Shown piece after piece: positions 7,273-39,131 of a DNA stretch of 57,120 bases (within the stretch, counting starts at the first letter, position 1; the number at the start of each line of letters is the position of its first letter). The translations under genes and the position numbers were made by a program. The notes beneath the pieces were generated by a model that was given only the letters and a program-made list of their open reading frames with translations, was not told the DNA's origin and ran no database searches. The DNA comes from Acidobacteriota bacterium (lineage in GTDB: Bacteria; Acidobacteriota; CAIWXX01). The stretch is from assembly GCA_016191015.1 (NCBI GenBank), contig JACPPM010000118.1, forward strand, positions 1 through 57,120. Direction: 5' to 3'.

Positions 7273-7600
7273 CGCAGCCCCGGAGGTTGCTTGGCGACGT
7301 GAGCGGAGCTGGGAGCGCGGCAATATTTATTTTTTGGATGCTACGGTGCTTGAAATCCAGCAGTGTGGGAAACCGATGTGAATCTCTTCAGCGTAGTGCA
7401 GCATTGAAAAGTGGAGTTTTGTACGATCCGAGACCGGTGTAAGCGGCGCAGTGGATGCTGTGCTGGAAATCAAGCAGCGCTGTCGGACATCCACACCGAC
7501 TTCTCATTGAGAGTCTGAGCTTCGATCTGAGGCATCGGCATGATCCCTGCAAGCCCATCTACGCGAGCGTGGTCATGAGAACGTGAACCCTGGAGGTCAT

Positions 7601-9301
7601 ATGCAGAACGATCCCGCCCGTCAGGTCTCCTCATCCTCGTCCGCAAACAGGAGGCTGGGCATGAGGCCCAGAGTCCTCCTCGTGAACCCGCACTACACGG
7701 CCGGATGTCATCTTCCCGCCCACGCGCCAGCGATCGTCGGCAAGTGGCCAGTCGCGAATCTCGTCCTACCGACACTGGCGGCCCTGACGCCGCGGAGCTT
7801 CGATGTCCGGATCGTGGATACCGCCGTCGAGAAGCTCGACTTCAATACGCCATGCGATATCGTAGGCGTCACCGGCTATCACTCGCACCTGAGCACCGCC
7901 CGTCGCATAGTCACCGAGTTTCGGAAGCGAGGCAAGCTTGTCGTCGTCGGCGGGCCAAGCGTAACGACAAGTCCGGAACGCTGGAGGCCGTTTGCAGACG
8001 TGCTGGTCCTGGGCGAGGCGGAGCGCACCTGGCCTCAGTTCCTGAGAGACTTCGAGTCCGGGAGGCATCAGACCGAGTACCGCGAGGCGGGGAAGATTGA
8101 TCTCGCGCTCACGCCACTCCCTCGGTATGATCTCCTCAAGCCTGAGCGATATCTTGCCGCCGTCGTGCAGCCGAGCCGGAGCTGCCCGTTCGAGTGCGAG
8201 TTCTGTGACGTGATCGTCTACCTGGGCAGAGGCATCCGCTACAAGCCCATCGATCACGTGATCGGGGAGCTCCAGCAGGTCTCGGACTTGGGCTGGAGGA
8301 CGTGCATGCTCGCCGATGACAACCTCACGGCCGATCGCCAGAAGGCCTACGAGTTGATGGACGCCATTCGAGTGTGGAACGAACGGCGGGAGCAACCGAT
8401 GATCTTCATAGCCAGCTTTTCGATTGACGCCGCCCGGGATCCGGGAATCTGCAAGCTCGCCGCGGCCGCGGGAATCAACCGAGTCTTCATTGGAATCGAA
8501 TCGCCTAACGAAGAATGCTTGCGTGAGACCAAGAAGCGACAGAACTTGCGGAGTGATATGCGGGCTGATCTCCGTAAGCTTTTTGAATTTGGCATTGTGC
8601 CGATTGGCGGAACTATCGTGGGCTTCGACCACGATGATATCGACGTCTTCAAGAAGACCTATGATTTCTCCCAGGAGTGCGGCATCCCCATCGTCAACAA
8701 TTACATGATGCAGGCATTCGACGGGACGCCTCTCAAGGCGCGAATGCTGCAGGAGGGCCGCTACATCGACTGGGATGACTATGAGGCCGTCCGTGACCGG
8801 GAAGGGCTCAGGCTGGGTCTCTCGTACGCCACCGCGCCGACCATCTATCCCAAAAACATGACGCTCAGGCAGCTCGAGCTCGGGCACACGTGGCTACTGC
8901 AGAGCCTCTACCAACCCGAAGCGTTCCTCGATCGGGTGCGCAGGATGTTCGACATCCTCGATACAGTGCCTTCGAGTGCGGTGCCGGAACATCGCCTGTG
9001 GCGCGTGTCATTCGAAGAAGCCAAAGTCATCTTCCGTCTGCTCGTGTACTTCGCACGAACCAGAGGTGGCGAGCGCAGGCTCTGGAAGAACATCATCAGA
9101 CTGGGCATGAAGAGCTCTTTCTCGCAACGCGGAGCCCTTGTGGCATGGCTGCTGCTGACGTACACATCCATTCGCCACAACCTCATAAAGATCTATCACG
9201 TCGATCCGCTCGACTCGAAAGATGCACCAGTCTATCCTGTCCGACCGCATAGCCAGACCGCTGACGCCACACTCCCCGTGGACTCCGTCGCAGCCTCTTA
9301 G
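7601..9301 (+). CDS. B12-binding-domain radical SAM enzyme, putative cluster tailoring enzyme
   Basis: I start at the ATG at 7601, which has GGAGG four bases upstream; an in-frame GTG at 7583 would add six residues. The 566-residue protein has an N-terminal Rossmann-like cobalamin-binding region (about 20-160; RVLLVNPHY, CDIVGVTGY, KLVVVGGPS, DVLVLGEAE). A radical SAM barrel follows (about 185-400) with the iron-sulfur signature CPFECEFC (CxxxCxxC). The C-terminal helical part resembles the extension (DUF4070-like) of HpnP-type enzymes. No DxHxxG cobalamin ligand is seen, as is common in this class. Such enzymes methylate or rearrange unactivated carbons using SAM and cobalamin. It is the first gene of the cluster and ends 30 bases before the first synthase, so modification of the polyketide is likely; the exact reaction is inference. 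Confidence 0.85.
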   Translation: MQNDPARQVSSSSSANRRLGMRPRVLLVNPHYTAGCHLPAHAPAIVGKWPVANLVLPTLAALTPRSFDVRIVDTAVEKLDFNTPCDIVGVTGYHSHLSTARRIVTEFRKRGKLVVVGGPSVTTSPERWRPFADVLVLGEAERTWPQFLRDFESGRHQTEYREAGKIDLALTPLPRYDLLKPERYLAAVVQPSRSCPFECEFCDVIVYLGRGIRYKPIDHVIGELQQVSDLGWRTCMLADDNLTADRQKAYELMDAIRVWNERREQPMIFIASFSIDAARDPGICKLAAAAGINRVFIGIESPNEECLRETKKRQNLRSDMRADLRKLFEFGIVPIGGTIVGFDHDDIDVFKKTYDFSQECGIPIVNNYMMQAFDGTPLKARMLQEGRYIDWDDYEAVRDREGLRLGLSYATAPTIYPKNMTLRQLELGHTWLLQSLYQPEAFLDRVRRMFDILDTVPSSAVPEHRLWRVSFEEAKVIFRLLVYFARTRGGERRLWKNIIRLGMKSSFSQRGALVAWLLLTYTSIRHNLIKIYHVDPLDSKDAPVYPVRPHSQTADATLPVDSVAAS

Positions 9302-9331
9302 CCGCGTCAAGCGCATGGGCAGCAAGTGACG

Positions 9332-12300
9332 ATGAATAGCGCTACTTCGCCGAAGAGGCCAGCGAGTGCAGCAGACATTCGTGCGTGGCTCGTGGCACAG
9401 CTCTCGGAGCGACTGGGCGTTCCATCCTCTGAGATCGACAATCAGCAGCCTTTCGCCAGCTACGGCTTGTCCTCGACCGAAGCCGTGGTTCTCTCGGGGG
9501 AGCTCGAAGACTGGTTGGGACGTCGACTCCAACCCACACTCGTGTGGGAGTACCCTACCATCGAGGCTCTTGCCGGGTACTTGGCAGAAGGACTTGAGTG
9601 CCCAGACAGAGCGGTGAAGGACGATGTCGGACCACGCATGACCGCGGAGCCGATTGCGGTGATCGGGTTGGGCTGTCGCTTTCCCGGAGGGGAAGACCCG
9701 GAGTCCTTCTGGGAGCTTCTTCGAGACGGAGTCGATGCAATCACGGAGGTCCCGGTTCAACGCTGGAACAGCTCCGACTTCTACGACTCGGATCCGGCTG
9801 CTCGTGGGAAGATGAACACTCGTTACGGAGGGTTCCTGGAAGAGGTGGATCAGTTTGACCCTCACTTCTTCTCCATCTCTCCCCGAGAGGCCGCCCGCAT
9901 GGATCCCCAGCAGCGGCTGCTGCTCGAGGTAGCGTGGGAGGCGCTGGAGAATTCCGGACGGGCACCCACCAAGCTGGGTGGCACGCAGACCGGCGTGTTC
10001 GTTGGAATCTGCAGCAGTGACTACTCGCTGTATCAGCTCTGCGATCCTACGCTTGTCGATGCCTATACCGGGACGGGCAATGCGCACAGCGTTGCGGCCA
10101 ACCGGCTTTCGTACGTCCTGGACCTCCGTGGTCCCAGCATGGCCTTGGACACCGCCTGCTCATCCTCCCTCGTGGCGGTCCACCTCGCCTGCCAGAGCCT
10201 CCGGAGTGGTGAATGCGACATGGCACTGGCGGCTGGGGTGAATGTGATGCTCGCTCCACATCTGACCATCGCTTTCTCCAATGCCCGCATGATGGCCGCC
10301 GATGGTCGCTGCAAGACCTTCGACGCTGGCGCCGATGGCTACGTGCGTGGCGAAGGCTGCGGGGTCGTCGTCCTCAAGCGCCTCTCTGACGCGATCTCAG
10401 ACAGAGACAACGTCGTCGCCGTCATACGCGGTTCGGCGGTCAATCAAGATGGCCTCAGCAATGGGCTGACCGCACCCAACGGCAATGCACAGCAGGCGGT
10501 CATTCGCCGAGCTTTGGAGAATGCCGGGGTCGCTCCAGCACAAATCAGCTATGTGGAGGCTCATGGAACGGGCACTCCACTAGGAGATCCCATCGAGATC
10601 GGGTCTTTGAAAGCAGTCCTCAGCCAAGGTCGAGCGGAAGACCATCTCTGTGCCATAGGATCAGTCAAGACAAACATCGGGCATCTGGAAGCCGGCGCGG
10701 GGATTGCCGGTTTGATCAAGGTCGTTCTCTCTTTGCAGCATGGAGCCATTGCTCCTCATCTGCACTTGAGAAGTCTCAATCCGCATATCGCGTTGGAGGG
10801 TACCCAGTTCTTCGTGCCCACCGAGCTCCAGCCGTGGCCGAGGAGCGCGGAGCGTCGGTTGGCAGGAGTGAGCTCGTTCGGCTTTGGCGGGACCAACGCG
10901 CACGTGATTGTGGAGGAGGCGCCCAAAGACGCCCACGTGGATCGCGATGTGGAGCGCCCCATGAACATACTCGCCCTCTCAGCGCGGAGTGAGAGTGCCT
11001 TGAAGACTCTTGGACGCCGCTACGGGACTTTCTTGCGGACCCACCCCGACGCATCCTTAGCGGATGTCTGCTTCACGGCCAACAGTGCACGGGCACGTTT
11101 TGGCCATCGCATGGCGATAACGGCCGCTTCTTCCGCCCAGTTGTGCGAACAGCTGGACGCATTCGACGCCGTGCAAGATCCACATCGCGCGGGAAACGCC
11201 AAGGCTTCCACCGGCCGACCGCCCAAGGTGGTCTTTCTTTTCACCGGACAGGGGTCACAGTACGTCGGCATGGGACGCGAGCTGTACGAGACACAACCCA
11301 CGTTTCGGGAAGCCATCGACATGTGCGACGATCTGGTCCGCCCCCTCCTTGACCGGCCGTTGCTCTCAGTGCTCTACCCGGAGCCGGGCGATACTTCGCC
11401 CTTGGACGAAACAATCTACACACAACCGGCGCTCTTCGCTCTGGAGATCGCTTTGTCGCAGTTGTGGCGATCTTGGGGGATAGAGCCGTCAGCCGTGATG
11501 GGCCACAGTGTGGGTGAATACGCTGCTGCCTGCGAGGCCGGTGTCTTCAGTGTGGAGGATGGACTGCGGCTGATTGTGGAGCGCGGCCGGCTGATGCAGA
11601 CTCTGCCACCTGTCGGAGAGATGGTGGCGGTCTTTGCTGATGAGGCGCGGGTTGCCTCACTTCTTGCTCCATACGCAGATCGAATCTCGATCGCCGCCGT
11701 CAACGGTCCTTCAGAGATTGTCGTATCGGGGGAGCGCACGGCGGTGGTCGCAGTGGTTGGAGAGCTGAAGGCAGAGGGGATCAAGGCCCGACCATTGACG
11801 GTCTCCCATGCATTTCACTCGCCGCTGCTTGATCCTGTGCTTCCAGGGCTTGAGCAGATAGCAGGGAGAGTCGAGTACTCACATCCGAAGATCGCACTGA
11901 TTTCGAACCTGACCGGTCAACAGGTAGAGGGAGAACTCGTCGCCCAGCGAGGCTATTGGCGACGGCACGCGCGAGAGCCTGTGATGTTCTCCGCCGGCAT
12001 TCAGTTCCTTCACGAACAGGGCTTTCGGCTGTTTGTCGAGATCGGTCCGAGTCCGATTCTACTGGGAATGGGACGTCGGTGTCTGCCGGAGGATGCAGGG
12101 GTCTGGCTACCTTCGTTGAGGAAAGGACAGAGCGATTGGCAGCAGATGCTCAGAAGCCTGGCTGCCCTCTACGCTCACGGGGCGGAGATTGACTGGGATG
12201 GATTCGACCGGGACTATCAGCGTCGCAGGGTAGCCGTCCCCACGTACCCCTTCGAACGGAAACGCTACTGGCTTGAGCCAAACCCAGAGGCGTCCGCGGT

Positions 12301-14341
12301 TCTCACCGAAACCTCCAAGAATGAGATGGTGCACCCCGACTCCGAGATCGGAGCGGACGAGTGGTTCTACCGGATTGAGTGGCAGACAAAGCCGCACAGA
12401 CCTCCGGTGCCAAATACAGAGTCGTGCAGGAACGCCGATGCAGGTCGTTGGTTGATCTTCGCAGACAACGGGGGCGTGGGCTCCGCACTGGCGGAACTGT
12501 TGGCTGAACGTGGCGAGAAGTGTGTGATGGTCTTTCCCGGTGAGGAATACGACGTCCTGGAGAACGGCGACCACAGGGTAAATCCCAAGCATCCCGAGGA
12601 CTTTCACCGGTTGCTCAACGAGACATGTGTGGCCGATCATCTCCCGTGCCGCGGCATGATCCATTTGTGGAGTCTGGAGGCATCAGGCGGGATTGAGCCG
12701 ACACTGAGCTGTCTGGAACAAGCTCAGGAGCTGGGTTGTAGCAGCGCGCTCCTCTTGGCACAGTCAGTGATTTCGGGCGGAACCTCCCCAAAGCCTCATA
12801 TGTGGTTGGTCACCCGATCTTCGCAGGCCGTCGGGCGGGAATCGCATCCACCGGCCGTAGCGCAAGCCCCATTGTGGGGATTGGGGCGAGTGATTGCCCT
12901 GGAGCATCCAGAGGTTTGGGGAGGGTTGGTAGACCTGAGCCCGGATGGATCCGGAGATGAGGTGTCGGCGCTTTTAGGGGAGATCTGGGAGCCTGATGGC
13001 GAGGACCAGGTCGCGTTTCGGAGCGGGCAGCGCTCCGTTTGCCGCTTGGTAGCGAGTCGCCGTGAATCATGCCACGCATGGTCCGCGCGATCCGATGTCA
13101 CCTACATGATCACCGGTGGTTTGGGGGGTTTGGGCTTGCGGGTCGCACGGTGGCTGGTTGAGCGGGGGGCGCGGCATCTGGCTCTCGTCGGGCGAACCGC
13201 CGTGACGGAGCGTTCGGCCTGGGAAAGCCTCCCGCGGGATAGCCGGACCTGGAAACGGATTTCAGAGCTCCAGGCTCTGGAGAATTCCGGCGCCACCATC
13301 AGTGTGTATCAGGGGGACGTCGGCGACTCGGCGCGGATGTCATCTATCTTCGAGGAGATAGATCGGGCGCAGCCGCCGGTGCGGGGAGTCATCCACGCTG
13401 CGGGTATATCGATGCCCATGCCTCTGGGAGACGTATCGGCCGGCACGCTCCGTTCCGTCATGCGCCCCAAGGTCGCAGGTGCCTGGGTTCTTCATCAGCT
13501 CACATGCAACATGAGTCTGGACTTTTTCGTGTGTTTTTCCTCCATAGCATCGGTGCTGGGTTCCAAATATCTTGCACACTACGCAGCCGCGAACCACTTC
13601 CTTGACGTGCTAGCTCATCATCGACAGGCGCTCGGCCTGCCTGCCTTGAGCATCAATTGGGCTCCGTGGGCCGACGTGGGCATGACTTCCACGGAAGAGA
13701 GCCTGTTGATGTCGCGGGTCGGGATGGGTTCCCTGCCTCCGGATCTGGCTGTTGGATACCTGGGCGACCTTTTGGGCACCGATGTCACGCAGGCAGTTGT
13801 AGCTCACGTCGATTGGAGCAGATTCATACCGGTCCATGAAACCAGAGCCCAGCGACCCCTCCTCATGCAGATGCGCTCTCAACTACCGGACATCCGCGAG
13901 CAGGTGCCAGGAGAAAAACCCGCTCTCATGCGCCGGCTACTCGCCGCCTCCGCCGTCCAACGCCAGGATCTGTTGGGTGCCTACCTCCAGGGTGAGGTCG
14001 CGAATGTGCTTGGTCTCGATCCCGCACTACAGGTGGATCCGCGACAAGGGTTTTTTGAGATGGGCTTGGACTCCCTGATGGCGATCGACCTGAAGAAGCG
14101 GCTCGAAGTGTCTCTCGGGCTCTTGCTGCCCAGCACCGTGGCCTTCGAATTCCCTTGCATCGATGCACTCGCCGGGCACCTTGCCAGGGAGATCGGCTCG
14201 GCCTGCTCGGAATCGACGCCCTCCCAGAAACCTTCGAAAGATCGTGACGGCTCGACCACCGCGGTGGCCGAAATCGAGCAACTCCCGGAAGACGCTACCG
14301 AAGCACTCCTCGTCGAAGAATTGGAACGGATGAATTACTAG
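9332..14341 (+). CDS. Type I polyketide synthase, loading ACP plus extension module 1 (ACP-KS-AT-KR-ACP)
   Basis: About 1669 residues from ATG 9332; an in-frame GTG at 9326 is the alternative, and residue numbers here count from it. ACP1 covers 15-92 with phosphopantetheine Ser50 in YGLSS. KS covers 107-530 with Cys278 (DTACSSS) and His413 (EAHGTGT). AT covers about 635-940 with Ser728 (GHSVG) and HAFH at 828-831, the motif typical of malonyl-CoA specificity. KR lies around 1255-1450 with TGGLGGLG and catalytic Ser1406 and Tyr1419, without an LDD motif. ACP2 has Ser1583 (GLDSL). There is no DH or ER, so the module should leave a beta-hydroxyl. An N-terminal ACP without a loading AT fits acceptance of a fatty acyl group from the FAAL at 31556. 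A two-base gap separates it from the next synthase. Confidence 0.93.
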   Translation: MNSATSPKRPASAADIRAWLVAQLSERLGVPSSEIDNQQPFASYGLSSTEAVVLSGELEDWLGRRLQPTLVWEYPTIEALAGYLAEGLECPDRAVKDDVGPRMTAEPIAVIGLGCRFPGGEDPESFWELLRDGVDAITEVPVQRWNSSDFYDSDPAARGKMNTRYGGFLEEVDQFDPHFFSISPREAARMDPQQRLLLEVAWEALENSGRAPTKLGGTQTGVFVGICSSDYSLYQLCDPTLVDAYTGTGNAHSVAANRLSYVLDLRGPSMALDTACSSSLVAVHLACQSLRSGECDMALAAGVNVMLAPHLTIAFSNARMMAADGRCKTFDAGADGYVRGEGCGVVVLKRLSDAISDRDNVVAVIRGSAVNQDGLSNGLTAPNGNAQQAVIRRALENAGVAPAQISYVEAHGTGTPLGDPIEIGSLKAVLSQGRAEDHLCAIGSVKTNIGHLEAGAGIAGLIKVVLSLQHGAIAPHLHLRSLNPHIALEGTQFFVPTELQPWPRSAERRLAGVSSFGFGGTNAHVIVEEAPKDAHVDRDVERPMNILALSARSESALKTLGRRYGTFLRTHPDASLADVCFTANSARARFGHRMAITAASSAQLCEQLDAFDAVQDPHRAGNAKASTGRPPKVVFLFTGQGSQYVGMGRELYETQPTFREAIDMCDDLVRPLLDRPLLSVLYPEPGDTSPLDETIYTQPALFALEIALSQLWRSWGIEPSAVMGHSVGEYAAACEAGVFSVEDGLRLIVERGRLMQTLPPVGEMVAVFADEARVASLLAPYADRISIAAVNGPSEIVVSGERTAVVAVVGELKAEGIKARPLTVSHAFHSPLLDPVLPGLEQIAGRVEYSHPKIALISNLTGQQVEGELVAQRGYWRRHAREPVMFSAGIQFLHEQGFRLFVEIGPSPILLGMGRRCLPEDAGVWLPSLRKGQSDWQQMLRSLAALYAHGAEIDWDGFDRDYQRRRVAVPTYPFERKRYWLEPNPEASAVLTETSKNEMVHPDSEIGADEWFYRIEWQTKPHRPPVPNTESCRNADAGRWLIFADNGGVGSALAELLAERGEKCVMVFPGEEYDVLENGDHRVNPKHPEDFHRLLNETCVADHLPCRGMIHLWSLEASGGIEPTLSCLEQAQELGCSSALLLAQSVISGGTSPKPHMWLVTRSSQAVGRESHPPAVAQAPLWGLGRVIALEHPEVWGGLVDLSPDGSGDEVSALLGEIWEPDGEDQVAFRSGQRSVCRLVASRRESCHAWSARSDVTYMITGGLGGLGLRVARWLVERGARHLALVGRTAVTERSAWESLPRDSRTWKRISELQALENSGATISVYQGDVGDSARMSSIFEEIDRAQPPVRGVIHAAGISMPMPLGDVSAGTLRSVMRPKVAGAWVLHQLTCNMSLDFFVCFSSIASVLGSKYLAHYAAANHFLDVLAHHRQALGLPALSINWAPWADVGMTSTEESLLMSRVGMGSLPPDLAVGYLGDLLGTDVTQAVVAHVDWSRFIPVHETRAQRPLLMQMRSQLPDIREQVPGEKPALMRRLLAASAVQRQDLLGAYLQGEVANVLGLDPALQVDPRQGFFEMGLDSLMAIDLKKRLEVSLGLLLPSTVAFEFPCIDALAGHLAREIGSACSESTPSQKPSKDRDGSTTAVAEIEQLPEDATEALLVEELERMNY

Positions 14342-14343
14342 AG

Positions 14344-17300
14344 ATGGATTGTGAGATGGACAAGAAGACCTCCAAGAAAGGCATAGAGCAGCGGTCGCCC
14401 CTCCACCGAGCGCTCGTTGCGGTGAGGGACCTGCGATCCAAGCTCGAAGCCGTCGAGCGTGCGAGAACTGAGCCGATCGCGATCATCGGGATGGCCTGCC
14501 GGTTTCCGGGAGGGGCTCACAATCCTGAGTCTTTTTGGCGAGAACTTCGCGATGGGGTGCACGCGATCAGAGAGATTCCTCCGGACAGATGGGACGCGGG
14601 AGCATATTACGACCCCGATCCCAATGCGCCCGGGAAGATGTACACGCGCTATGGAGGGTTTCTCGAGGACATTGACAAGTTCGACGCGCAGTTCTTCCGC
14701 ATATCCCCACGTGAAGCGGCAGCTATGGATCCCCAGCAACGGATCCTGATGGAAGTGAGCTGGGATGCGCTGGAGCACGCTGGCCAGGAGATTGACCGGC
14801 TCGCCGGTTGTCAGGCCGGAGTTTTCGTGGCAATCAGCACCAACGATTATGCGCAGAGGATTGCGCTAGCCGGGACTACATACCTCGACGCGTACTATGC
14901 CACTGGCAACTCCCTGAACGCATCGGCCGGTCGCCTCTCCTACTTCTTCGGGTTTCAGGGTCCCTGCATGGCGGTGGATGCAGCGTGCGCCTCATCATTG
15001 GTGGCGGTCCATCTCGCGTGCCAGAGCCTCCGTGCCCGAGAGTGCACGCTGGCACTTGCCGGGGGAGTCAGCGCGATTCTAAACCCCGATAGCTTCATCG
15101 CTCTTTCCAAGGCGCGGGCGATGGCCCCCGATGGCCGCTGCAAGACCTTTGACGCCGGGGCCGATGGATACGTGCGAGGCGAGGGATGCGGAGTCGTCGT
15201 GCTCAAGCGACTCTCCGACGCGATTGCGGATGGCGATCCGCTCCTCGCAGTGATTCGTGGATCTGCGGTCGGTCAGGATGGCCGAAGCAGTGGACTCACG
15301 GTTCCTAACGGGTCCGCCCAGCAGGCCATGATTCGTGCGGCCCTGACAAACGCCGGTGTGGAGCCCGCGCAGGTGAGCTACGTGGAAGCACACGGCACCG
15401 GCACGTCTCTCGGAGACCCCATCGAGGTGCGGGCTCTCGGGGCCGTGATGGGCCAGGGACGCCCGGTTGACAAGCCCCTGCTGCTCGGTTCCGTGAAGAC
15501 CAACATCGGGCATCTGGAAGCCGCGGCCGGTATTGCGGGTGTGATGAAGGTCGTCCTCGCTCTCCGGAACCAAGAAATCCCGCCCCACCTGCACCTGAAG
15601 CAAATCAACCCCGACATCTCGCTCGAGAAGATACCCGCCGTGGTCCCCACAGAGAGGGTGCCGTGGCTTTCAGGAAACGGACCGCGCATAGCGGGCGTGA
15701 GTGCCTTCGGCCTCAGCGGGACCGTAGCTCACGTTGTATTAGAGGAAGCGCCGGAGTCATGTGCGATTCCGGCGGCTGGCGCAGGTAGTACTGATGGAGC
15801 CTATCTGGTACCGATATCGGCGCAGAGTGCGGAGGCGCTTGAAACACTCGCCCGTTCCTACCGGGATTTCCTTTCTGCCGACCCGGCGGGTTTGCCGGCG
15901 TTGGCTGACATCGCCTATACAGCATCGGTCCGGCGCACGCACCTCGAGCATCGCCTTGCGGTTGTTGGCCGTTCTCAGGCCGATGTCGCCGAGCACATAT
16001 CGGCCTATCTGCAAGGAGAAGCGCGTCCTGGGCTCTCTTCCGGACACCGAGAGGTGCAGCGCCGGCGCAAGCTGGTTTTCGTTTTTCCCGGTCAGGGGGG
16101 ACAGTGGGTCGGGATGGCGCGGGATCTGCTCGCGCAGGAGCCGGTTTTTCGATCAGCCTTGGCGCAGTGTGAGCAGGCGCTGCGGCCATACGTAGACTGG
16201 TCGCTGCTTGAAGTCCTCACCACCGATTCTTCGCCCTCTCCGCATGAGCGGATTGACATCATCCAGCCGGCGATTTTCGCCATTCAGGTGGCGCTGGCGG
16301 CGCTCTGGCGTGCGTGGGGTATTTCCCCCCACGCGGTGGTTGGGCACAGCATGGGCGAGGTGGCGGCGGCCTGTGTGGCGGGCGCATTGAGCTTGGACGA
16401 TGCGGCGCGAGTGCTAAGCCGCCGCAGCCAGTTGCTGCGGCGCAGGAGCGGGCAGGGGGCCATGGCGGTTGTTGAGCTGTCGCTGGAAGAGGCCCGAAGA
16501 GAGCTGACGGGGTACACGGATCTCCTGGCGGTTGCCGCGAGCAACAGCCCGAAAGCAACCGTGCTCTCGGGCGAGCCAAAGGCGCTGGAGGCACTTCTGG
16601 AGACGCTGCTGCAGCGCGGGGTTTTCTGCCGGCCGGTGAAGGTGGACGTGGCCTCCCACAGCCCGCAAATGGACATCCTGCGGGAGGACTTGCTGCAAGC
16701 CCTGGACGGGCTGCAGCCTCGGCCAGGTGCAGTGCCGATCTACTCGACCGTGACGGGCCGGGTCAGCGACGGCGGGGGATTCGACGCGGGATACTGGGTG
16801 AGAAACCTGCGCGAGCCCGTGCTCTTTGCCCCGGCCATCGACCGACTCGCGGCCGACGGTCACGATATTTTCTTGGAGCTCAGTCCGCACCCGACACTGT
16901 CGGTGGCCATCCAGGAAGGGCTGACTCACCGAGGGAGCGAGGGCACGGTGTTGTCATCTCTGCGCCGGGAGGAGCCGGCTCGATCCGTGCTCCTCGGAAC
17001 ACTCGGGGCCTTGTACACATCGGGCTACCCAATCGACTGGGGACGGCTCTATCCAACACGCGGTCGCTGCGTCGGCCTGCCTTCCTATCCCTGGCAGCGC
17101 GAACGTTTCTGGATTGAGAGCGCGGAGAACAGCGGGCAACGCAGGGGCATGCTCGCTTCACGACCGAGGGGGGGAGCGGGATCAGCACCCTTTCCGGGTG
17201 AACGATTGCGGGCGCCTGCGATCAAGGAGATTCTGTTCGAGTCACAATTCAGCAGCGCGCTCCTACCGCTCCTCGATGACCACCGGATCGAAGGGGAGAT

Positions 17301-24100: not shown

Positions 24101-27100
24101 CGGCCCGCGTGTACTGACGGACATCACGTTTCGGCGATTGCTGTTCCTGCCTGAAGGATGCGCTCGCATAGCCCAAGTAGTCATGAGGTCAGATGCACAA
24201 GGCGCGACCACCTTCGAAGTACACTCGCGGCCTGCCGAGGGTGATTCATCGGAGTGCGCTTGGACGCTGCATGCGACAGGCACGATACAGCAGGATCAGC
24301 TGTCCAGCACTCCCGCCGCCCTGGATCCACTGAAACCGGACGAAGTGCGGGCCCGTTGTCCGCTTGAGATGCCGGGCAAAGACTTCTATCTCCAGTCTGC
24401 CGCACGGGGGAATGAGTGGGGTCCATGCTTCCAGGGGATCACCCGCCTCTGGCGAGGCGAACGAGAGGCCTTGGGAGAGCTGCAGGTGCCCGCGTTACTG
24501 GAGCCCGAGCTCGACCGGTATCAAATCCACCCGGCGCTTCTCGATGCCTACCTTCACACTCTTGGAACCACGGTGCCTGTTGAGACGATCGGGCGTCGTG
24601 GCACGTTCGTGCCCATCCACCTGGACCAGGTGCGGGCTCACAGCCGGCCGTCGACACTCCGGTTGTGGAGCCACGCCGTACTCCGGCCGAGTGCCCAATC
24701 AGGGGTGGCCGTCTTCGATGGCGATATCCGGCTCTACGATGAAACCGGGCAACCTGTTGTGGAGTTTATTGGATTGCGCATCCAGGGGCTGGACCCTGAT
24801 GCCCAGCGCTTCAACGAGGAAAGCCCTGACAACTGGCTCTACGAGATCCAGTGGCAGCCCAAAGTATGTGGGGGAGCGGCTGAGCACCCAACTGACTCCT
24901 CGAGCTTCCGAATCATCTTTGGCGACGACAGTGGGGTTGGAGAGGAGCTGGCGGCCAAAGCGGAGGCGCAGGGTGAGAGGTATGTGCTGGTCACATCAGG
25001 CGATGCGTACGAGCGGATCGACGAGGCGCATGTCCGGGTGCGACAGGGGAATCGCGAAGACCTCCGGCAGCTTCTGCGCGGCATTGCCGATCAGGATCGG
25101 GCCAACTGTCGCGGTATCTTCCACCTCTGGAGCCTTGACGCAGCGGCTCCCGGGCAGACCACCACATCCTCCGTGGTGAAGGCGCAGGAACGTGGTCCCG
25201 GCACCGCAATACTCCTGACCCAGGAGCTGGTGAACGCGAGGTGGCGAGAACTGCCTCGTCTCTGGCTGGTGACTCGCGGGGCGCAGTCGGTGGAGTCGCG
25301 TCTTCGGCCGATGGCACCGGCGCAATCTCCTTTGTGGGGGCTCGGCCGCACGATCGCTCTGGAACAACCGGCTCTTTGGGGAGGTCTCGTGGACCTTGAT
25401 CCGGGGGCACCTGCCACTGAGAATGCCTCTCGGCTGTGGGATGCTGTGGCGCGGTCGGACGGGGAGGACCAGCTCGCGTTTCGCCAGGGACAGCGCTATG
25501 TCGCCCGCCTGGCCCGAAGAGACCGCAAGGACGATCTTGGACGTCGGATCGAGTGGCGCTCCGATGCCAGCTATCTCGTCACGGGAGGGCTCGGCGGCCT
25601 CGGCCTCCTGGTTGCCCGTTGGATGGTCGAGCATGGTGCTCAACACGTGATCCTCATGGGACGCACCGCGCTCCCGCCACGTTTCGAATGGAAAGAGCGA
25701 AGTCCGGAAGGACAATATTCGCGGGTGATATCGGCCGTCCTCGAAATAGAGGCGCTGGGTGCAGAGGTGCACCTCGCATCGGTCGACGTTGCGGATGAGG
25801 CTCAGCTTCACGCCTTCCTGCTGGCTTGGCGCGCGGATGACCGCCCGCCGATTCGCGGCGTGGTGCATGCCGCCGGAGTTGTCGAGCTCAAGGCCTTGCA
25901 GGAGCTGGATCTCGACGGTCTGCAAAGGGTCTTGAGACCCAAGGTCCTTGGTGCCTGGCTGCTCCACAGCCTCCTGGCCGATGTACCTCTCGATTTCTTC
26001 GTCTTGTTCTCCTCGGGAGCTTCGCTGCTCAGCTCCCCGTTCCTTGGAAGCTATGCCGCTGGAAACGCATTCCTGGATGCACTCGCTCACCACCGACGAG
26101 CCGCGGGTCTCGAAGCCATGAGCATCAACTGGGGGTTCTGGTCCGAGGTGGGGCTGGCCGCGCGTTTCCAGCAGCAGGCAGGGCAAACGTCGCCGGCGCC
26201 GGGGATGGGAAGCTTCTCCCCGGCAGAAGGGCTGGAAATGCTCGACCGGCTCCTCAGCGAGAATCCAGTGCAGGTTGGGGTGATGCCGATCAACTGGCGC
26301 GAGTGGCGCCGGCATCATCCGGCCGCAGCCGAATCGCCGCTCCTCTCCGGCTTCCCAGGCGACGCACCCTCCGTTTCGCCTCGGGCTGCTCGACATCAAG
26401 ATGCGAGCGGGCTTGCCGGCGAGGCGATACTCAAGGCGCGTCCGGAGGAGCGTGGGCGTCTGGTATCGGCCTTCCTCGGCAAACATCTGGCGCGAGTCCT
26501 CAAGCTCTCCGAATCCAAGCTGGACCTCAGCCGACCGGTCAACAAGCTGGGACTCGATTCGCTGATGGCGATCGAGCTGAAGAATTTCATCGAGAGCGAG
26601 CTGGGTGTCGTGGTGCCCGTGGTGGCCTTCCTGCAAGGGCCCAGCGTGACTCAGCTCGCGGAAACGGTGCTGGAACACCTCATCGTTCGGGATTTCCCGC
26701 AAACGTCTCTCCCCACCCAGGACAGGACGAAAGAATTGCCGACAATCGTACCTGCCTTTGGGGAGCGTCATGAGCCATTCCCGCTCAACGACATCCAGCA
26801 GGCCTACTGGATCGGCCGGAGCAATTTCTTCGAGCTGGGCAATGTCGCGGCACATATCTACTTGGAGCTTGATAGCACTGGTCTAGACCTTGAGCGGCTC
26901 ACGGGTGCATGGCAACGGATCGTGGAACGTCACCCCATGCTCCGTGTTGTCATTCTGCCCGACGGTCGGCAGCAGATCCAGGAGCACGTCCCTCCGTACC
27001 AGATTCAGTGTTCCGATATGCGGGGTGAGGAGCCCGAGCTCATCTCGGCGCGGCTCGAAACCATCCGGCAAGACTTGTCACACGAGGTCCGTCGGACTGA

Positions 27101-29966
27101 TCGGTGGCCGCTCTTTGAGATCCGGGCTTCTCGCCTGGAAGACCGACGCATTCGCCTGCATCTCAGCTTCGATATCATGATCGCCGACATATGGAGTCTC
27201 CAGATCTTACTGCGGGAGTGGTCCCAGCTCTATCATGACCAGTGCACTCGACTGTCACCACTTGATCTTTCATTCCGCGACTACACCTTGGCTGCATCCG
27301 CATTGGAGAGCTCAGAATCATTTCGCCGTTCTCTCGAGTACTGGCGGAACCGCGTGCCGACACTACCCCCCGCGCCGGATTTGCCACTTGCCAAGAGCCC
27401 CGCCTCGATTGAACGTCCGCGTTTCATCCGCCGCACCGCGAAATTGGAGCCGAATCTCTGGAATCGGCTCAAGGATCGCGCTTCACAGGCCGGGCTAACG
27501 CCGTCGGGCATCCTGCTCGCCGCCTTCGCCGAGATTCTCTCCACCTGGAGCAGGAACCCACGCTTCACTATCAACGTGACGCTTTTCAATCGGCTGCCGA
27601 TCCATCCACAGGTCAATGAGATCGTCGGGGATTTCACATCAGTAAACCTGCTGGCCGTGGACGCAACCGGACCGGACGATTTCGAACGCCGGGCGACAAA
27701 CCTCCAACGACAGCTTTGGGAAGATCTCGAGCACAGCCAAGTCAGCGGAGTGCGGGTCCTGAGGGAGTTGACTCGAACCCAAGGCGGCCTACCAGGCGCG
27801 GTCATGCCGGTCGTCTTCACGAGCACTCTCACGAACCTTTTCGCGCAGAGCGCTGAGACGCTGCCTCTGGATTGGCTAGGGCAGAGGGTGTACGGCATCG
27901 CCCAGACTCCGCAGGTCTGGATAGACCACCAGGTATTCGAACAGAGCGGGGCGCTCGTGTTCAACTGGGACGCCGTTGAGGAGCTCTTTCCACACGGGAT
28001 GCTCGATGACATGTTTGAATCATACTCGCGATTCCTGCGGCGCCTGGCGGAGGAGGAGTCTACCTGGCACGAAACGGAGCGGCACCTCGTGCCACCGGCA
28101 CAGCTCGAACTGCGATCCGTCCTGAACCGCACAGATGCACCGGTCTCCGCTGAGCTGCTCCACCGCCTCTTCGAGCAGAAGGCCGATCAGACCCCCCAGC
28201 ATCTGGCCGTGATTGCTCCCGGCCGGCGCCTGACCTATGAGGAGCTCTCTCGTCGCTCCAGGCAGGTTGGGCGCCTGCTCCGCAAGATGGGGGCGCGTCC
28301 CAACACCCTGGTAGCGGTCGTCATGGAGAAGGGGTGGGAACAGGTGGTGGCCGTGTTAGGGGTTCTGAGCTCGGGGGCAGCATACCTTCCGATCGATCCG
28401 GGGCTTCCCATCGAGCGCGTCCATTATCTGCTCGAGAACGGCGAGGTCGAGCTGGCGGTGACGCAGCCATGGCTTTCTGCGCAGCTGGAGTGGCCTGACC
28501 GCGTCAGCCGCCTGGTTGTCGACGATGTGACCCATGTGGACGTCGCCGAGGCACCTCTAGCCCCGGTGCAGGGCCCCGATGACCTTGCCTACGTCATCTA
28601 CACCTCCGGGTCAACGGGCCGGCCCAAAGGGGTAATGATCGACCACCGTGGAGCGGTCAATACGGTTCTCGACATGAATGAGCGTTTCAGCGTGGGACCC
28701 GACGACCGTGTGCTCGCGATTTCGTCTTTGAACTTCGACCTGTCGGTCTACGACATTTTCGGCCTTCTGGCGGCGGGCGGCACAGTTGTCTTACCTGGAC
28801 CCGCCGCCACGAGGGACCCTGCCCTGTGGTCGGAGATGATGAGGCGCGAGCAAGTGACTATATGGAACTCCGTGCCCGCCTTGATGCAACTGCTGGTTGA
28901 GCACGCCGTTGTCCTCCCCGAAGCACTGCCCCGCTCGTTGCGACTAGTGCTTCTCAGCGGTGACTGGATCCCGCTCGCACTACCGGATCAGATCAAGACC
29001 GTCGCAGAGCGGGTGAGTGTCGTGAGCCTCGGAGGAGCCACAGAGGCGTCGATCTGGTCCATCCTTTACCCGATCGAGCAGTCCGATCCCGATTGGAAGA
29101 GCGTCCCGTATGGCAGGCCGATGAGGAACCAACGATTCCACGTCCTCGATGAGCGGCTCGACCCGTGCCCAGAATGGCTCCCAGGTCAGCTCTACATCGG
29201 AGGTGTAGGATTGGCGAAGGGATACTGGAGAGACCCGGAGAAGACGAGCGCGAGCTTCTTCGTCCACCCACGAACCGGCGAGAGACTCTACCGAACCGGA
29301 GATTTGGGAAGATACCTCCCCGATGGGAATATTGAGTTCCTTGGACGCGAGGACTTCCAGGTCAAGATCCAGGGGTATCGGATCGAGCTCGGCGAGGTCG
29401 AAGCGACTCTCGAACAGCACCCTGCTGTGCGGAGCGCGGTCGTCGCGGCATTCGGCGAGCCCCGTGGGAACAGACGTCTGGTCGGTTACGTCGTTCCCAA
29501 CCCGGACCAGAAATCCACGATCGCCGAACTGCGGCGGTTCCTCCAGAGCAGGCTGCCCGAGTACATGGTGCCCTCCCTTGTTGTGCCCCTTGCGAGTCTG
29601 CCGCTGTCGCCAAACGGCAAAGTGGATCGCAAGGCTCTCCCTGCACCTTCCATGATCACCGCCCCTGCCAAGGAGGGGGCGGCGGCGGAGCGATCGCCGA
29701 TCGCCAACCGGATCGCTGAGTTGATTGCTCGGGTGGTGAAAGCTGATCACATCGACCCGGATGCGAATCTCCTCGACCTCGGGACGAGCTCGGTCGAGAT
29801 GATCCGGATTGCCAGTCTACTCGAGAAGGAACTGGGCTTCCGGCCGAAGATCGACGAATTTTACAGGAATCCTACGATTGAAGGGCTGGTCGAGTCCTAC
29901 GACCAGCAGAGAGCTCTAACGTTGTTCCACGAAGAGGAACGGACTACTGGAGGTTCACAATTGTGA
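21099..29966 (+). CDS. Hybrid PKS-NRPS: module 3 (KS-AT-DH-KR-ACP) and cysteine cyclisation module 4 (Cy-A-PCP)
   Basis: 2955 residues. KS has Cys208 (DTACSSS). AT has Ser662 (GHSMGE) and VASH at 762-765 (methylmalonyl-type). DH has His974 ([10 protein letters not shown]) and Asp1149 (HPALLD). KR has Tyr1652 (SYAAGN); no ER. ACP has Ser1821 (GLDSL). A heterocyclisation domain (about 1890-2330) follows, with [11 protein letters not shown], the DxxxxD pair Asp2025/Asp2030 in [16 protein letters not shown] and [10 protein letters not shown]. The A domain (about 2345-2845) has [11 protein letters not shown] and [10 protein letters not shown]. Aligning its pocket by motif gives D-L-Y-N-L-S-L-I-W-K, the known cysteine code, with Lys2841 last. 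PCP has Ser2898 (LGTSS). No oxidase insert lies between the late A motifs and there is no C-terminal thioesterase. The module should form a thiazoline-4-carboxylate on an unsaturated chain. It overlaps the thioesterase gene by GTGA. Confidence 0.95.
22491..23846 (+). repeat. 1.36-kb internal repeat, copy 2 (AT domain of module 3)
   Basis: Partner of 15757-17112, equal in length. Long runs are identical, for example the DNA around the VASH motif and around GHSMGE; differences are scattered single bases. Homogenised AT cassettes imply that modules 2 and 3 take the same extender unit. Confidence 0.85.
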
Positions 29967-30742
29967 CGACATCGGATTTCGACGCATGGGTGACGTGCCC
30001 AAGGCCCAATCCTCATGCGCGGCTGCGGGTGTTCTGCTTTCCGTACGCGGGCGCCGGGTCCTCAATCTTCCGCCAGTGGCATGCCAGTCTGCCTCGGGAG
30101 GTTGAAGTGTGTCCGATTCAGCTCCCGGGCCGAGAGGGCCGTCTCAGAGAAACCCCGTTTGCCGCCCTTCCACCCCTCATCCCCAAACTGGCGATGGTGC
30201 TTTCTTCCTTTCTGAATCTGCCATTCGTCTTCTTCGGTCACTGCATGGGTGCCTTGATCAGCTTCGAGCTGGCCCGCCATCTCCGTCGCCAGCAGTGTCC
30301 GGGTCCGGTGCACCTGTTCGCTTCCGGCCAACGCGCTCCTCAGCTCCCGTGCGAGCTGCAGTCTATCCATCGTCTACCCGACACCGAGCTGATCGGAGAG
30401 TTGCGGCGGTTGAACGCCGTGCCGGAGGAGGTGCTGGAGGACGCAGAATTCATGCGAATGCTTCTTCCGACGCTGCGGGCGGATTTCGCCATCTGCGCCA
30501 CGTATGCCTACAATCGTCAGGATCCTCTCGACTGCTCCATCTCCGCCCTCGGCGGCGTCGGGGACTTCAAAGTGAGCCGTGACCAACTCGTGGCATGGCG
30601 CGAGCAAACTCACGGGACCTTCACAGAGCGTATGTTTCCCGGCGATCATTTCTTCCTACATACCGCGCAGGCCGATCTCCTGCGCGGGATATCCCAAGAT
30701 CTCACCCAGCTACTCAGCCGTCCTGCGGAATGCCGGTGCTGA
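29963..30742 (+). CDS. Type II-like thioesterase with cysteine nucleophile
   Basis: 259 residues of the alpha/beta-hydrolase thioesterase family found beside PKS/NRPS genes. It starts at GTG 29963 with GGAGG upstream and overlaps the synthase stop (GTGA). The N-terminal motif VFCFPYAGAGSS and QLPGRE are typical of external thioesterases. The nucleophile elbow reads GHCMG, so the usual Ser is Cys94. Asp201 (GVGDFKVS) and His229 (GDHFFL) complete the triad. Family members remove wrong or stalled acyl groups from carrier domains. Because the last synthase has no integrated thioesterase, this protein may also release the final product; that is inference. Confidence 0.9.
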   Translation: MTTSDFDAWVTCPRPNPHARLRVFCFPYAGAGSSIFRQWHASLPREVEVCPIQLPGREGRLRETPFAALPPLIPKLAMVLSSFLNLPFVFFGHCMGALISFELARHLRRQQCPGPVHLFASGQRAPQLPCELQSIHRLPDTELIGELRRLNAVPEEVLEDAEFMRMLLPTLRADFAICATYAYNRQDPLDCSISALGGVGDFKVSRDQLVAWREQTHGTFTERMFPGDHFFLHTAQADLLRGISQDLTQLLSRPAECRC

Positions 30743-31482
30743 TGAAGGCTCCTCGCTGCATGCCAATGCCTCCAGAGAAGGGCTTCTCTCTGTCACCCGA
30801 TGAGGTCCACATCTGGATCTCGCCCCTCGATTACCCTGAACAGCGTCTGTCGGATTTTGCGTCGACGCTAGACGGGAATGAGCACGCCAGAGCACATCGG
30901 TTCTATTTTGAGAGAGACCGCAGGCGTTTTGTCGCCGCGCGAGGTATACTGCGGACCCTGCTCGGGCGCTACCTGGGCGAGTGCCCCGATGGCATCCAGT
31001 TCTCTTACGGAGCACGTGGGAAACCAACCGTTGCCGGCCCGGACCGTCTGCGCAACGTTCGCTTCAATCTCTCCCACTCGAATGGGTACGCTTTGTTCGC
31101 CTTCACTGTCGATCGAGAGATCGGAGTCGACCTGGAGCGTATCCGTCCCCTCCCTGAAGCCTCTGGGATCGTCAGCAGATATTTTTCTCCTCATGAAAGT
31201 GCGCTCTTTCACACGATTCCTATGAACGGAAGGCTCGATGCGTTCTTCAAGTACTGGACGTGCAAAGAGGCCTTCTTGAAGGCGAAAGGAGACGGGTTGT
31301 CGTATCCCTTGGACCAGGTCGAGGTCGAGCTCGCTCCGGGTGGGGGTGCGGGACTACTCAGAATTGACAGAGATCCTCGCGAAGCCAGCCGCTGGTCCCT
31401 CCGGGATTTCGTACCCATACCAGGCTATGCGGGAGCTATAGCCGTCGAGGGACATGATTGGAGCTTGGTGTGGCCAAGTTGA
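30742..31482 (+). CDS. Sfp-type 4'-phosphopantetheinyl transferase
   Basis: 246 residues from the ATG at 30742, which overlaps the thioesterase stop (TGATG); an ATG at 30730 is an alternative. Sfp-family motifs are in order: RRRFVAARGILRTLLG, GKPTVAGP, NLSHSNGYALFAF, GVDLERI (metal-binding Asp and Glu) and KYWTCKEAFLKAKGDGL. It transfers phosphopantetheine from CoA to the conserved Ser of the four ACPs and one PCP of the neighbouring synthases, so the cluster carries its own activation enzyme. Length fits the family. Confidence 0.92.
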   Translation: MKAPRCMPMPPEKGFSLSPDEVHIWISPLDYPEQRLSDFASTLDGNEHARAHRFYFERDRRRFVAARGILRTLLGRYLGECPDGIQFSYGARGKPTVAGPDRLRNVRFNLSHSNGYALFAFTVDREIGVDLERIRPLPEASGIVSRYFSPHESALFHTIPMNGRLDAFFKYWTCKEAFLKAKGDGLSYPLDQVEVELAPGGGAGLLRIDRDPREASRWSLRDFVPIPGYAGAIAVEGHDWSLVWPS

Positions 31483-31555
31483 CGGCGCAGCGGCATAGAC
31501 ACTCCATCGATGCGCAGGCCTGGAGACCCTGCGATGGCCCGCCGGAGATGCAGCG

Positions 31556-33418
31556 ATGAGCGAATGCTCGTGCGATCCAGCCTGCGACTGTCCCACTCTC
31601 GTCGAGCTCCTCCGTCGAAGGGCACATCAGCAGCCAGATCGTCGCGCCATAACTTTCTTGCTCGACGGTGAAGCGCACGAGATCGGCCTGAGCTATGGCG
31701 AGCTGGACCGACGGGCTCGCACAATCGGCGCATGGCTCCAGGGGCTGGGAGCAGCGGGAGAGCGTGTATTGCTCCTCTATCCACCCGGTCTGGATTACCT
31801 CACCGCCTTCTTCGGGTGTTTGTACGCTGGAGCCACCGCTGTGCCGGTCTACCCGCCTCGACCCAATCGGCCAGACCCGCGTCTCCAGGCCGTGGCGATG
31901 AGCGCCCAGGCCACATTTGCACTCGGCACCCGAGCCCTGCTGTCGGGATTAGAGGCGAGACTTGCATACGCCGAAGAGTTGCGCGCAATTCGCTGGATGG
32001 ACATCGACAACATCGACAGCGCACTCGCCGACTGTTGGCGTGATCCCGTTATCGACTGCGACACGCTGGCTTTTCTTCAATACACCTCCGGCTCCACCAG
32101 CACACCGAAGGGCGTGATGCTTACCCATGGCAACCTGCTCCACAACCTGTCTCTCATGCATCGGTGTTTCGACACCACGCCCTCCGACCATGCCGTGATC
32201 TGGCTGCCGCCGTATCATGACATGGGGTTGATAGGTGGGATCCTCGAACCGCTCTTTGGTGGATGGCCTGTCACTCTGATGTCTCCACTGGACTTCTTGC
32301 AACGTCCTCTGCGATGGTTGAGAGCAATCTCCCGCGTGAGAGGCACAATCAGCGGCGGGCCGAATTTTGCTTACGACCTCTGTGTTCGCAAGATCACCGC
32401 CGAGCAGCGGATGGCACTAGACCTCAGCTGTTGGAGGGTAGCCTTCAATGGTGCTGAGCCGATCCGTGCCGAGACATTGGAGAGGTTCGCGGAGGCCTTC
32501 GAGCGGTGTGGCTTCCGGCGAGATGCCTTCAGACCCTGCTATGGTCTCGCGGAAGCGACTCTCATTGTTTCAGGTCGTGTGAGCACCTCAGCCATGACGG
32601 CCTCGCCCATATCGCGCCGGCGCGCGGCACAGAGACTCTCCGAGGCGAGTGCCGGAAGCACCGGGAGAATGCCTGCCCGAGTGATCGTCAGCTGCGGTCA
32701 GATCCTGGGCGGGCAGGAAGTCGCTATCGTCGACCCCGATGCCGCCCGCCGGTGTCCCGCCGGGGAGTCAGGGGAGATCTGGGTATCCGGGCCAAGCACC
32801 GCCACGGGCTATTGGAACAGGCCCGAGGAGACGATGCACACGTTTCAGGCATATATGTCCGACACGGGTGAAGGGCCGTTTCTCCGTACGGGAGACTTGG
32901 GCTATGTCGAGGACGGCGAGCTCTTCGTCACGGGCCGCCTCAAGGATCTGATCATCATTGACGGTCGCAATCACTACCCCGAAGACATCGAGCTCACCAT
33001 CGAGAAGATTCATCCTGCAATCCGGTCCGGTTGCTGCGCTGCTTTCTCTGTCACTCACCAGGGCCAAGAATGCCTGGCAGTCGTCGCCGAGGTGGATCGC
33101 TGTTGTGGGCCGCAGAAGCATGCGTCACAGACAGAGACAAGCATGGAGCGAGAAAACAACCGGGCACTGGATGCCGAGGAAATCGTCAAGGCTATCCGAA
33201 AGGCCGTGGCGGAACATCACGATCTGAGACTGCACGCAGCGATATTGATCAGACGTGGAACAATTCCGAAGACTTCCAGCGGAAAAGTCCGTCGCCATGC
33301 CTGCCGGGCTGCGTTCGCCGCCGGGGCTCTGACTCTGTGGGAGGCGGCTGCAGAGGGACTCTCCCAGCCCAGCCCGGATGCCGCGCCGGACGCAAGAGGC
33401 GGGTTGCGCCAGGGGTGA
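31556..33418 (+). CDS. Fatty acyl-AMP ligase (FAAL), starter-unit activator
   Basis: 620 residues of the adenylate-forming superfamily, FAAL branch. Motifs: LSYGELDRRARTIGAWL, the P-loop-like YTSGSTSTPKGVMLTHGN, WLPPYHDMGLIGG, GGPNFAYDLCVRKI, FNGAEPIR, CYGLAEATL, LRTGDLGYV and the hinge/C-terminal region GRLKDLIIIDGRNHYPEDIE. The pattern PPYHDMGL and the phrase NHYPEDIE are characteristic of FAALs rather than acyl-CoA ligases. It should form acyl-AMP from a free fatty acid and pass it to the N-terminal ACP of the synthase at 9332. It follows the transferase by 73 bases and is the last gene of the cluster. Confidence 0.92.
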   Translation: MSECSCDPACDCPTLVELLRRRAHQQPDRRAITFLLDGEAHEIGLSYGELDRRARTIGAWLQGLGAAGERVLLLYPPGLDYLTAFFGCLYAGATAVPVYPPRPNRPDPRLQAVAMSAQATFALGTRALLSGLEARLAYAEELRAIRWMDIDNIDSALADCWRDPVIDCDTLAFLQYTSGSTSTPKGVMLTHGNLLHNLSLMHRCFDTTPSDHAVIWLPPYHDMGLIGGILEPLFGGWPVTLMSPLDFLQRPLRWLRAISRVRGTISGGPNFAYDLCVRKITAEQRMALDLSCWRVAFNGAEPIRAETLERFAEAFERCGFRRDAFRPCYGLAEATLIVSGRVSTSAMTASPISRRRAAQRLSEASAGSTGRMPARVIVSCGQILGGQEVAIVDPDAARRCPAGESGEIWVSGPSTATGYWNRPEETMHTFQAYMSDTGEGPFLRTGDLGYVEDGELFVTGRLKDLIIIDGRNHYPEDIELTIEKIHPAIRSGCCAAFSVTHQGQECLAVVAEVDRCCGPQKHASQTETSMERENNRALDAEEIVKAIRKAVAEHHDLRLHAAILIRRGTIPKTSSGKVRRHACRAAFAAGALTLWEAAAEGLSQPSPDAAPDARGGLRQG

Positions 33419-38568: not shown

Positions 38569-39131
38569 CACTGGGGGCAGACGCCGTGCGTGAAGGTGAG
38601 GGTAGAGTGTTCGCTAATATGCACGTCGACCTGGTGCCAGTAGGCCTTGTCGTCGCGAATCCTCTTGCAGTAGGAGCAGATGGGGAGCAAACCTTGTAGC
38701 CTGGTGACATGTGCTTGGGCCTGCTCGAGCTCCTTGACCCGCCTCTCGAGATCTATCTGGAGCTGCAAAATGCGCGCACCGGCCTGCACACCTGCGGCGA
38801 GCTCGGCCGGATGGAACGGTTTGGCCACGTAGTCGTTCGCGCCCGCTTCGAGGGCCTCAGCCACCTCCCGAACGCCGGCCCTCGCCGTAAGGACAAGGAC
38901 CCATGTGCCCTGCGTCTCCGGTTTGGCGCGGAGCCGCCGACACACATCGAGACCGTCGAGGCCGGGCATCATCCAGTCGACGACGACAAGTCGCGGTGCA
39001 CCCGGCTGCTGAAGAAGCTCCCACGCCTCGTTACCGTCAGGGGCCGTCACCACCTCGAAGCCGAGGCCTGTGAGGGTGGACTCCGTGAGCGTTCGCGACA
39101 CCGGGTCATCGTCCGCCAGCAAGATCTTCAT
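38508..39131 (-). CDS. Response regulator with C-terminal Cys-rich output domain
   Basis: 207 residues. The receiver domain (1-120) begins [15 protein letters not shown], with phospho-acceptor Asp in [11 protein letters not shown], Thr in VLTARAG and Lys in YVAKPFHP. A coiled-coil linker follows ([19 protein letters not shown]). The short output region has [11 protein letters not shown] and [10 protein letters not shown], two CxxC pairs suggesting a metal site; this arrangement is common in response regulators partnered with hybrid kinases. It overlaps the kinase gene by ATGA and is surely co-transcribed with it. Confidence 0.9.

Follow-up and report, generated by a model that had tools for sequence, protein, structure and literature searches.

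An orphan acidobacterial gene cluster predicted to build an acyl-polyketide thiazoline

What molecule could be assembled by seven tightly packed genes on a contig from an Acidobacteriota bacterium, and how much of its structure can be predicted from the order of the encoded enzymes? The genes lie at 7601-33418, all on the + strand, of contig JACPPM010000118.1 (assembly GCA_016191015.1), a stretch of 57,120 nucleotides (hereafter the window) that is one whole contig of a 6.43 Mb draft genome. They encode, in this order, a radical S-adenosylmethionine (SAM) protein, two polyketide synthases (PKS1 and PKS2), a hybrid of polyketide synthase and nonribosomal peptide synthetase (PKS-NRPS), a thioesterase (TE), a 4'-phosphopantetheinyl transferase (PPTase) and a fatty acyl-AMP ligase (FAAL). 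Distances between successive genes are only 24, 2, -4, -4, -13 and 73 bp, and they therefore most likely form a single operon. This orphan cluster is genuine, its parts are intact and fit together, and a colinear backbone is the best prediction for its product. We favor, with moderate confidence, a colinear FAAL-PKS-NRPS assembly line as the best explanation of the locus.

In the proposed pathway, the FAAL would activate a fatty acid and load it onto ACP0, the first carrier domain of PKS1. Module 1 would add malonyl and reduce it to a beta-hydroxyl, module 2 would add methylmalonyl with full reduction, and module 3 would add methylmalonyl and halt at a 2-methyl alkene, after which the terminal Cy-A-PCP module would add L-cysteine and close a thiazoline ring. 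The stand-alone TE, which carries a cysteine nucleophile, would then release R-CH(OH)-CH2-CH2-CH(Me)-CH=C(Me)-thiazoline-4-carboxylate or its cyclised form, and the radical SAM enzyme would place a methyl group onto an unactivated carbon of the carrier-bound intermediate or of the product. The order of genes and domains and the intact state of the motifs were read directly, and from these we infer which substrates are used, how the chain is released, what the radical SAM enzyme does and what the final structure is. The initial annotation of this DNA had proposed R-CH(OH)-CH2-CH2-CH(Me)-CH=C(Me)-thiazoline-COOH; its backbone stands as a well supported prediction, but its end at the thiazoline acid fares less well given two genes that it had listed, namely the radical SAM gene, which is indeed present but had been given no role in the predicted structure, and the thioesterase gene, whose product is indeed stand-alone but whose cysteine nucleophile, like the lack of a cis TE, had been overlooked.

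The integrity of the cluster is well documented. Its KS domains reach Pfam scores of 332-355 bits vs a curated cut-off of 20.8, and because the scores in the cluster exceed the curated cut-offs by far, these matches did not arise by chance. The genome holds 11 KS matches, of which the three strongest are all in the cluster and are the sole ones in very long frames. KS-AT-ACP modules together with an A-PCP module, all with intact catalytic residues, identify a modular type I PKS-NRPS system. Both the order and the coordinates of the seven same-strand genes agree with the initial annotation, which had named inactive key domains as grounds for abandoning its reading; motifs are intact in the KS, AT, KR, DH, ER, carrier, Cy and radical SAM domains, and among all catalytic motifs checked the sole substitution is a Ser to Cys change in the TE. 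Specifically, we located the catalytic Cys (in all three KSs) and both His of KS, the Ser of AT, the Ser and Tyr of KR, the His and Asp of DH, the nucleotide loop of ER and the carrier Ser.

Evidence for the start of the chain comes from both ends of the operon. The stand-alone FAAL (31556-33418, + strand), identified through its PDB matches and predicted to load ACP0, is closest to 7r7e-g (589 bits, aligned over residues 14-593), followed by FadD32, FadD23 and FadD28, and each of the 15 PDB hits with E <= 1e-60 is a FAAL or a close acyl-AMP ligase. Among all fetched loci, the eight best relatives of ACP0 (9362-9565, + strand; PKS1 aa 13-80, Pfam) directly follow a FAAL, with the first non-FAAL match 17 bits lower, and this adjacency ties the FAAL at the 3' end of the operon to the carrier at its 5' end. 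Taken together, these two lines support the previously suggested FAAL-loaded fatty acyl starter as a prediction. PKS1 starts directly with ACP0, PKS2 and PKS-NRPS start with docking-like segments, and PKS-NRPS ends in a PCP, which fixes the order of the modules.

The three synthases, all on the + strand, provide the extension modules. PKS1 (9326-14341; Pfam, motifs and ACP0 relatives) has the domain order ACP0-KS1-AT1-KR1-ACP1, with KS1 at 9647-10768, AT1 at 11231-12166, KR1 at 13100-13675 and ACP1 at 13982-14182. PKS2 (14344-21102; Pfam, motifs and AT2 PDB matches) follows as KS2-AT2-DH2-ER2-KR2-ACP2, with KS2 at 14470-15597, AT2 at 16075-17016, DH2 at 17197-18024, ER2 at 18934-19821, KR2 at 19888-20421 and ACP2 at 20734-20925, the domains of both proteins being assigned by Pfam and motifs. 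In PKS-NRPS (21099-29966; Pfam, Cy motif and A-domain code), which reads KS3-AT3-DH3-KR3-ACP3-Cy-A(Cys)-PCP, Pfam places KS3 at 21207-22331, AT3 at 22809-23714, DH3 at 23919-24803, KR3 at 25566-26147 and ACP3 at 26481-26681. Domain content and intact motifs thus support the reduction levels assigned earlier, i.e. KR only, KR-DH-ER and KR-DH. AT1 carries HAFH, which we take to be the malonyl-type specificity motif, and AT2 and AT3 both carry VASH, which we take to be the methylmalonyl-type motif; the earlier division into a malonyl-type module 1 and methylmalonyl-type modules 2 and 3 is supported at the level of predicted specificity. The top PDB matches of AT2 are ATs of modular PKSs, including modules for erythromycin, tylactone and pikromycin. 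Elsewhere the genome carries two methylmalonyl-CoA mutase genes, so the methylmalonyl extender can be made.

AT2 and AT3 are 92.1% identical as proteins, vs 37% to AT1, and the similarity extends to DNA: a stretch spanning the KS C-terminus, linker and AT in PKS2 (15120-17112, + strand) and its counterpart in PKS-NRPS (21854-23846, + strand) align by blastn with 84.8% identity over 2008 columns. Outside this shared stretch of about 2.0 kb the modules of the two proteins have diverged. Such high identity in both protein and DNA indicates that the AT is shared through (recent) internal duplication or gene conversion, giving modules 2 and 3 the same extender choice.

The terminal module, on the + strand as well, comprises Cy (26778-28061; Pfam and motif), A(Cys) (28170-29621; Pfam and code) and PCP (29709-29894; Pfam). 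The A-domain code DLYNLSLIWK, derived from core motifs at aa 2546-2653 that include FDLSVY, IWNSVP and LVLLSGD, is what we take to be the classical Cys code. The Cy domain carries DIMIADIWS at aa 2025 of PKS-NRPS, in agreement with the core motif DxxxxDxxS that is used for recognising Cy domains (PMC5518548). A Cys-specific code next to a true Cy domain supports, as a prediction, the incorporation of cysteine with heterocyclisation that had been proposed. Relatives of Cy and A, at roughly 45-67% identity, occur commonly among NRPSs of cyanobacteria and other organisms, and the module itself is therefore ordinary.

The case against the colinear assembly line starts with its own basis, the pathway being predicted from sequence rather than from expression or chemistry. 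KS1 is 61-65% identical to several KSs that follow a FAAL-ACP pair, but KS2 and KS3 come almost as close to these, so that the KS evidence adds little to a FAAL start. The choice of methylmalonyl by the VASH-type AT2 and AT3 is a prediction and no proof, KR1 and KR3 are without a clear A- or B-type fingerprint, the extender and stereochemical assignments are likewise predictions, and no dedicated exporter or oxidase was found in the cluster or its flanks. As for release, Pfam detects neither a cis TE nor a reductase domain in PKS-NRPS, and the chain ends at the PCP. The stand-alone alpha/beta TE with its Cys nucleophile (29963-30742, + strand; Pfam Thioesterase 156 bits, homologue comparison and PDB matches) is the sole release candidate in the cluster and, on present sequence evidence, most likely releases the chain. 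In its nucleophile motif, GHCMG, Cys94 (codon TGC at 30242-30244) takes the position of the Ser in the GxSxG motif of type II TEs, vs GHS or GYS in all 15 homologues from the fetched loci; candidates for the Asp and His can be recognised as well. The nearest PDB entries are stand-alone type II thioesterases such as RifR, and given this ancestry the TE could be an editing enzyme. That it merely edits stalled carriers, with release by an unlinked enzyme or through attack by another nucleophile, would fit a terminal module ending at a PCP, but we regard this as rather unlikely, since the genes for the TE and the terminal synthase share 4 bp and the annotated genes of the contig include no second release enzyme. 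Cys nucleophiles are known in the TEs ObiF1, which forms a beta-lactone, and SulM, which forms a monobactam (PMC6668435, PMC11298585), and for this reason the Cys can be read as functional chemistry. The same precedents, together with a GHCMG motif unique among the 16 sequences compared, raise the option that the same backbone leaves as a cyclic product, the TE lactonising e.g. the module-1 hydroxyl with the thiazoline carboxyl; this seems unlikely to us, as the enzyme is closest to stand-alone type II hydrolases, the implied 11-membered ring with an E-alkene would be strained, and, with a single sequenced allele, a one-base change or error at the Cys94 codon is possible.

The objections extend to the B12-binding-domain radical SAM protein (7601-9301, + strand), a probable C-methyltransferase of the assembly line, recognized from Pfam, an AlphaFold model, fold matches and its position 24 bp 5' of PKS1. 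It combines a B12-binding domain (38.6 bits) with a radical SAM core (Radical_SAM 51 bits, CxxxCxxC at aa 201-208) and DUF4070 (30.2 bits), and its model (built from 17 sequences, pLDDT 83) matches AprD4 (Z 28.4), MgmA (24.4), CysS (24.0), TsrM (22.8) and OxsB (22.3) over most of its length, with TokK also among the nearest folds. The top PDB match by both fold and sequence, AprD4, is a diol dehydratase and not a methylase, and a radical enzyme of another kind (e.g. a dehydratase or a rearranging enzyme) acting on the hydroxylated chain is a possibility that we hold doubtful, given that most other full-length B12-type matches (MgmA, CysS, TsrM, TokK) are methylases and that the Pfam B12-binding domain is present. 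No curated NCBIfam equivalog reached its cut-off for the protein. Homologues reach at most 39% identity and are found in varied settings, e.g. in a Nif11/NHLP RiPP locus (Shinella), beside a FAAL (Acaryochloris) or beside a reducing PKS (locus L143), most of them lacking a nearby PKS, so that context does not fix the substrate. The PDB structures of CysS and TokK contain pantetheinylated substrates, and CysS acts as an iterative methylase in the assembly of cystobactamid (PMC7966384); because the modeled fold resembles these enzymes, methylation of a carrier-bound intermediate appears most likely, although with AprD4 being a dehydratase and homologues in unrelated contexts it is a step that we only infer. 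Since the fold is that of cobalamin radical SAM enzymes, mostly methylases, the final molecule is probably modified beyond the colinear backbone. A thiazoline that is both C-methylated at an unactivated carbon by this enzyme and released as a lactone by the Cys TE would, if true, unite two uncommon tailoring steps in a new scaffold, and we think this combination improbable. Thiotetronate (thiolactomycin) clusters also have a methylmalonyl-using PKS ending in Cy-A(Cys)-PCP, and their TlmB joins KS, AT, DH, KR and ACP with Cy, A, PCP and TE (PMC5518548), which raises the alternative that the cysteine serves as a sulfur donor for the polyketide and that the product retains no thiazoline. We rejected this use as very improbable: those clusters have a KSQ starter, iterative use, a P450 and sulfur-transfer enzymes, none of which occurs in the studied cluster; in the window we saw neither a KSQ loading protein nor a P450, a cysteine desulfurase, a thiouridylase or a KASI/II self-resistance gene; no P450 was found among the cluster or scanned flanking genes; and the chain starts from FAAL/ACP instead of KSQ.

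Comparison with known systems places the colinear FAAL-PKS-NRPS line among familiar relatives. The mycobacterial phthiocerol pathway consists of the FAAL FadD26, PpsA-E and TesA, with a first synthase of the ACP-KS-AT-KR-ACP type, malonyl and methylmalonyl units and a stand-alone type II TE. The layout at the start of the cluster resembles that of FadD26/PpsA, and TesA and Pps chains are among the PDB matches of the cluster TE and AT2; the phthiocerol pathway differs in being without Cy-A-PCP (no thiazoline) and without a radical SAM gene, its product being a wax diol. CysS of cystobactamid is a cobalamin radical SAM methylase of an assembly-line pathway, but its identity is only about 14% and its substrate is a benzoate ether rather than an acyl chain or thiazoline. 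In the lyngbyapeptin B/barbamide systems, a terminal Cys module (Cy-A(Cys)-PCP-TE) yields thiazoline-4-carboxylic acid on the assembly line (PMC10127204); these differ in having a peptide chain, a cis TE and the decarboxylase LynB7/BarH, which leads to a thiazole and is absent from the cluster.

Genomes in GTDB were scanned with a Cy-A alignment and the 78 best loci were taken, none of which has the same architecture. Nearest in logic among them are Tumebacillus lacus (L071) and Stenomitos frigidus (L096), with FAAL-ACP-KS-AT-(MT)-ACP-Cy-A-PCP-R: they share the FAAL start, a PKS module and Cy-A (Cy 54-56% and A 55-62% identical, KS 65% identical to KS1), but have one PKS module instead of three, lack both a radical SAM gene and a KR-DH-ER module, and carry a reductive release domain. 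A Streptomyces plasmid cluster (L150, L151) has three synthases, an ACP first, KS-AT-DH-ACP-Cy-A-PCP last and methylmalonyl-type ATs, but no FAAL directly beside it, a cis TE, an LLM flavin oxidoreductase and different reduction domains. Within the phylum (396 genomes searched), a Cy domain occurs in 8, including the source genome, and none of five Cy neighbourhoods mapped at least in part has the same architecture; a search by FAAL matched 23 genomes, and the three further loci mapped gave none either. The class counts two genomes in the set, the other of which lacks a Cy domain but has its own FAAL-led NRPS-PKS, so the architecture was not found there, nor was it found in the plasmid records examined. 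These results suggest that it is rare. No description of a FAAL-PKS-Cys-thiazoline cluster of this kind was found in the literature, and the main text of a 2025 FAAL review (PMC11837247) has no words starting thiazol-, heterocycl- or radical SAM. The earlier label 'undescribed' is consistent with the genome, plasmid and literature searches, whose scope did not include MIBiG. The radical SAM protein had no match in viral contigs.

Every catalytic step has precedent, so the novelty lies in the combination and not in the kind of system. If the prediction is true, the cluster contributes an amphiphilic scaffold, an acyl-polyketide thiazoline, from a class of bacteria that has been poorly sampled. 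Specialist interest attaches to the pairing of a cobalamin radical SAM enzyme with a fatty-acyl PKS and to a stand-alone TE with a Cys nucleophile. Moreover, the operon is complete and compact and brings along enzymes for carrier activation and starter loading, which makes it a practical candidate for heterologous expression. Carrier activation is assigned to the Sfp/HetI-type PPTase (about 30730-31482, + strand; Pfam ACPS 59 bits, NCBIfam HetI 227 bits, which is under the HetI cut-off), for which a start at 30730 or 30742 is likelier than 30595; the radical SAM gene starts with the ATG at 7601, an alternative GTG at 7583 being possible.

Several observations were made on related loci and on the surroundings of the cluster. 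On a plasmid of Acaryochloris marina (L034, 6736-10617), a FAAL and a B12 radical SAM homologue (32%) are divergent and adjacent, without a PKS, a pair that hints at a wider FAAL-radical SAM link. In another genome of the phylum (G257; L170, 1805-5522), a FAAL and an LLM flavin oxidoreductase accompany an ACP-KS start like that of PKS1 (ACP 50%, KS 60%), the contig stopping inside the KS. Directly 3' of the cluster, 34845-38030 encodes a 1061-aa calcineurin-like metallophosphatase with fn3, immunoglobulin and carboxypeptidase-regulatory-like domains, which is probably unrelated. A 1510-aa hybrid two-component sensor (39128-43660, - strand; propeller, HisKA, two receiver domains and Hpt) lies between the cluster and a ribosomal operon and could be a regulator. 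The ribosomal operon itself (S7, EF-G, S10, L3, L4, L2, S19, S3, L16, L5; 46307-55602) starts about 13 kb downstream of the cluster.

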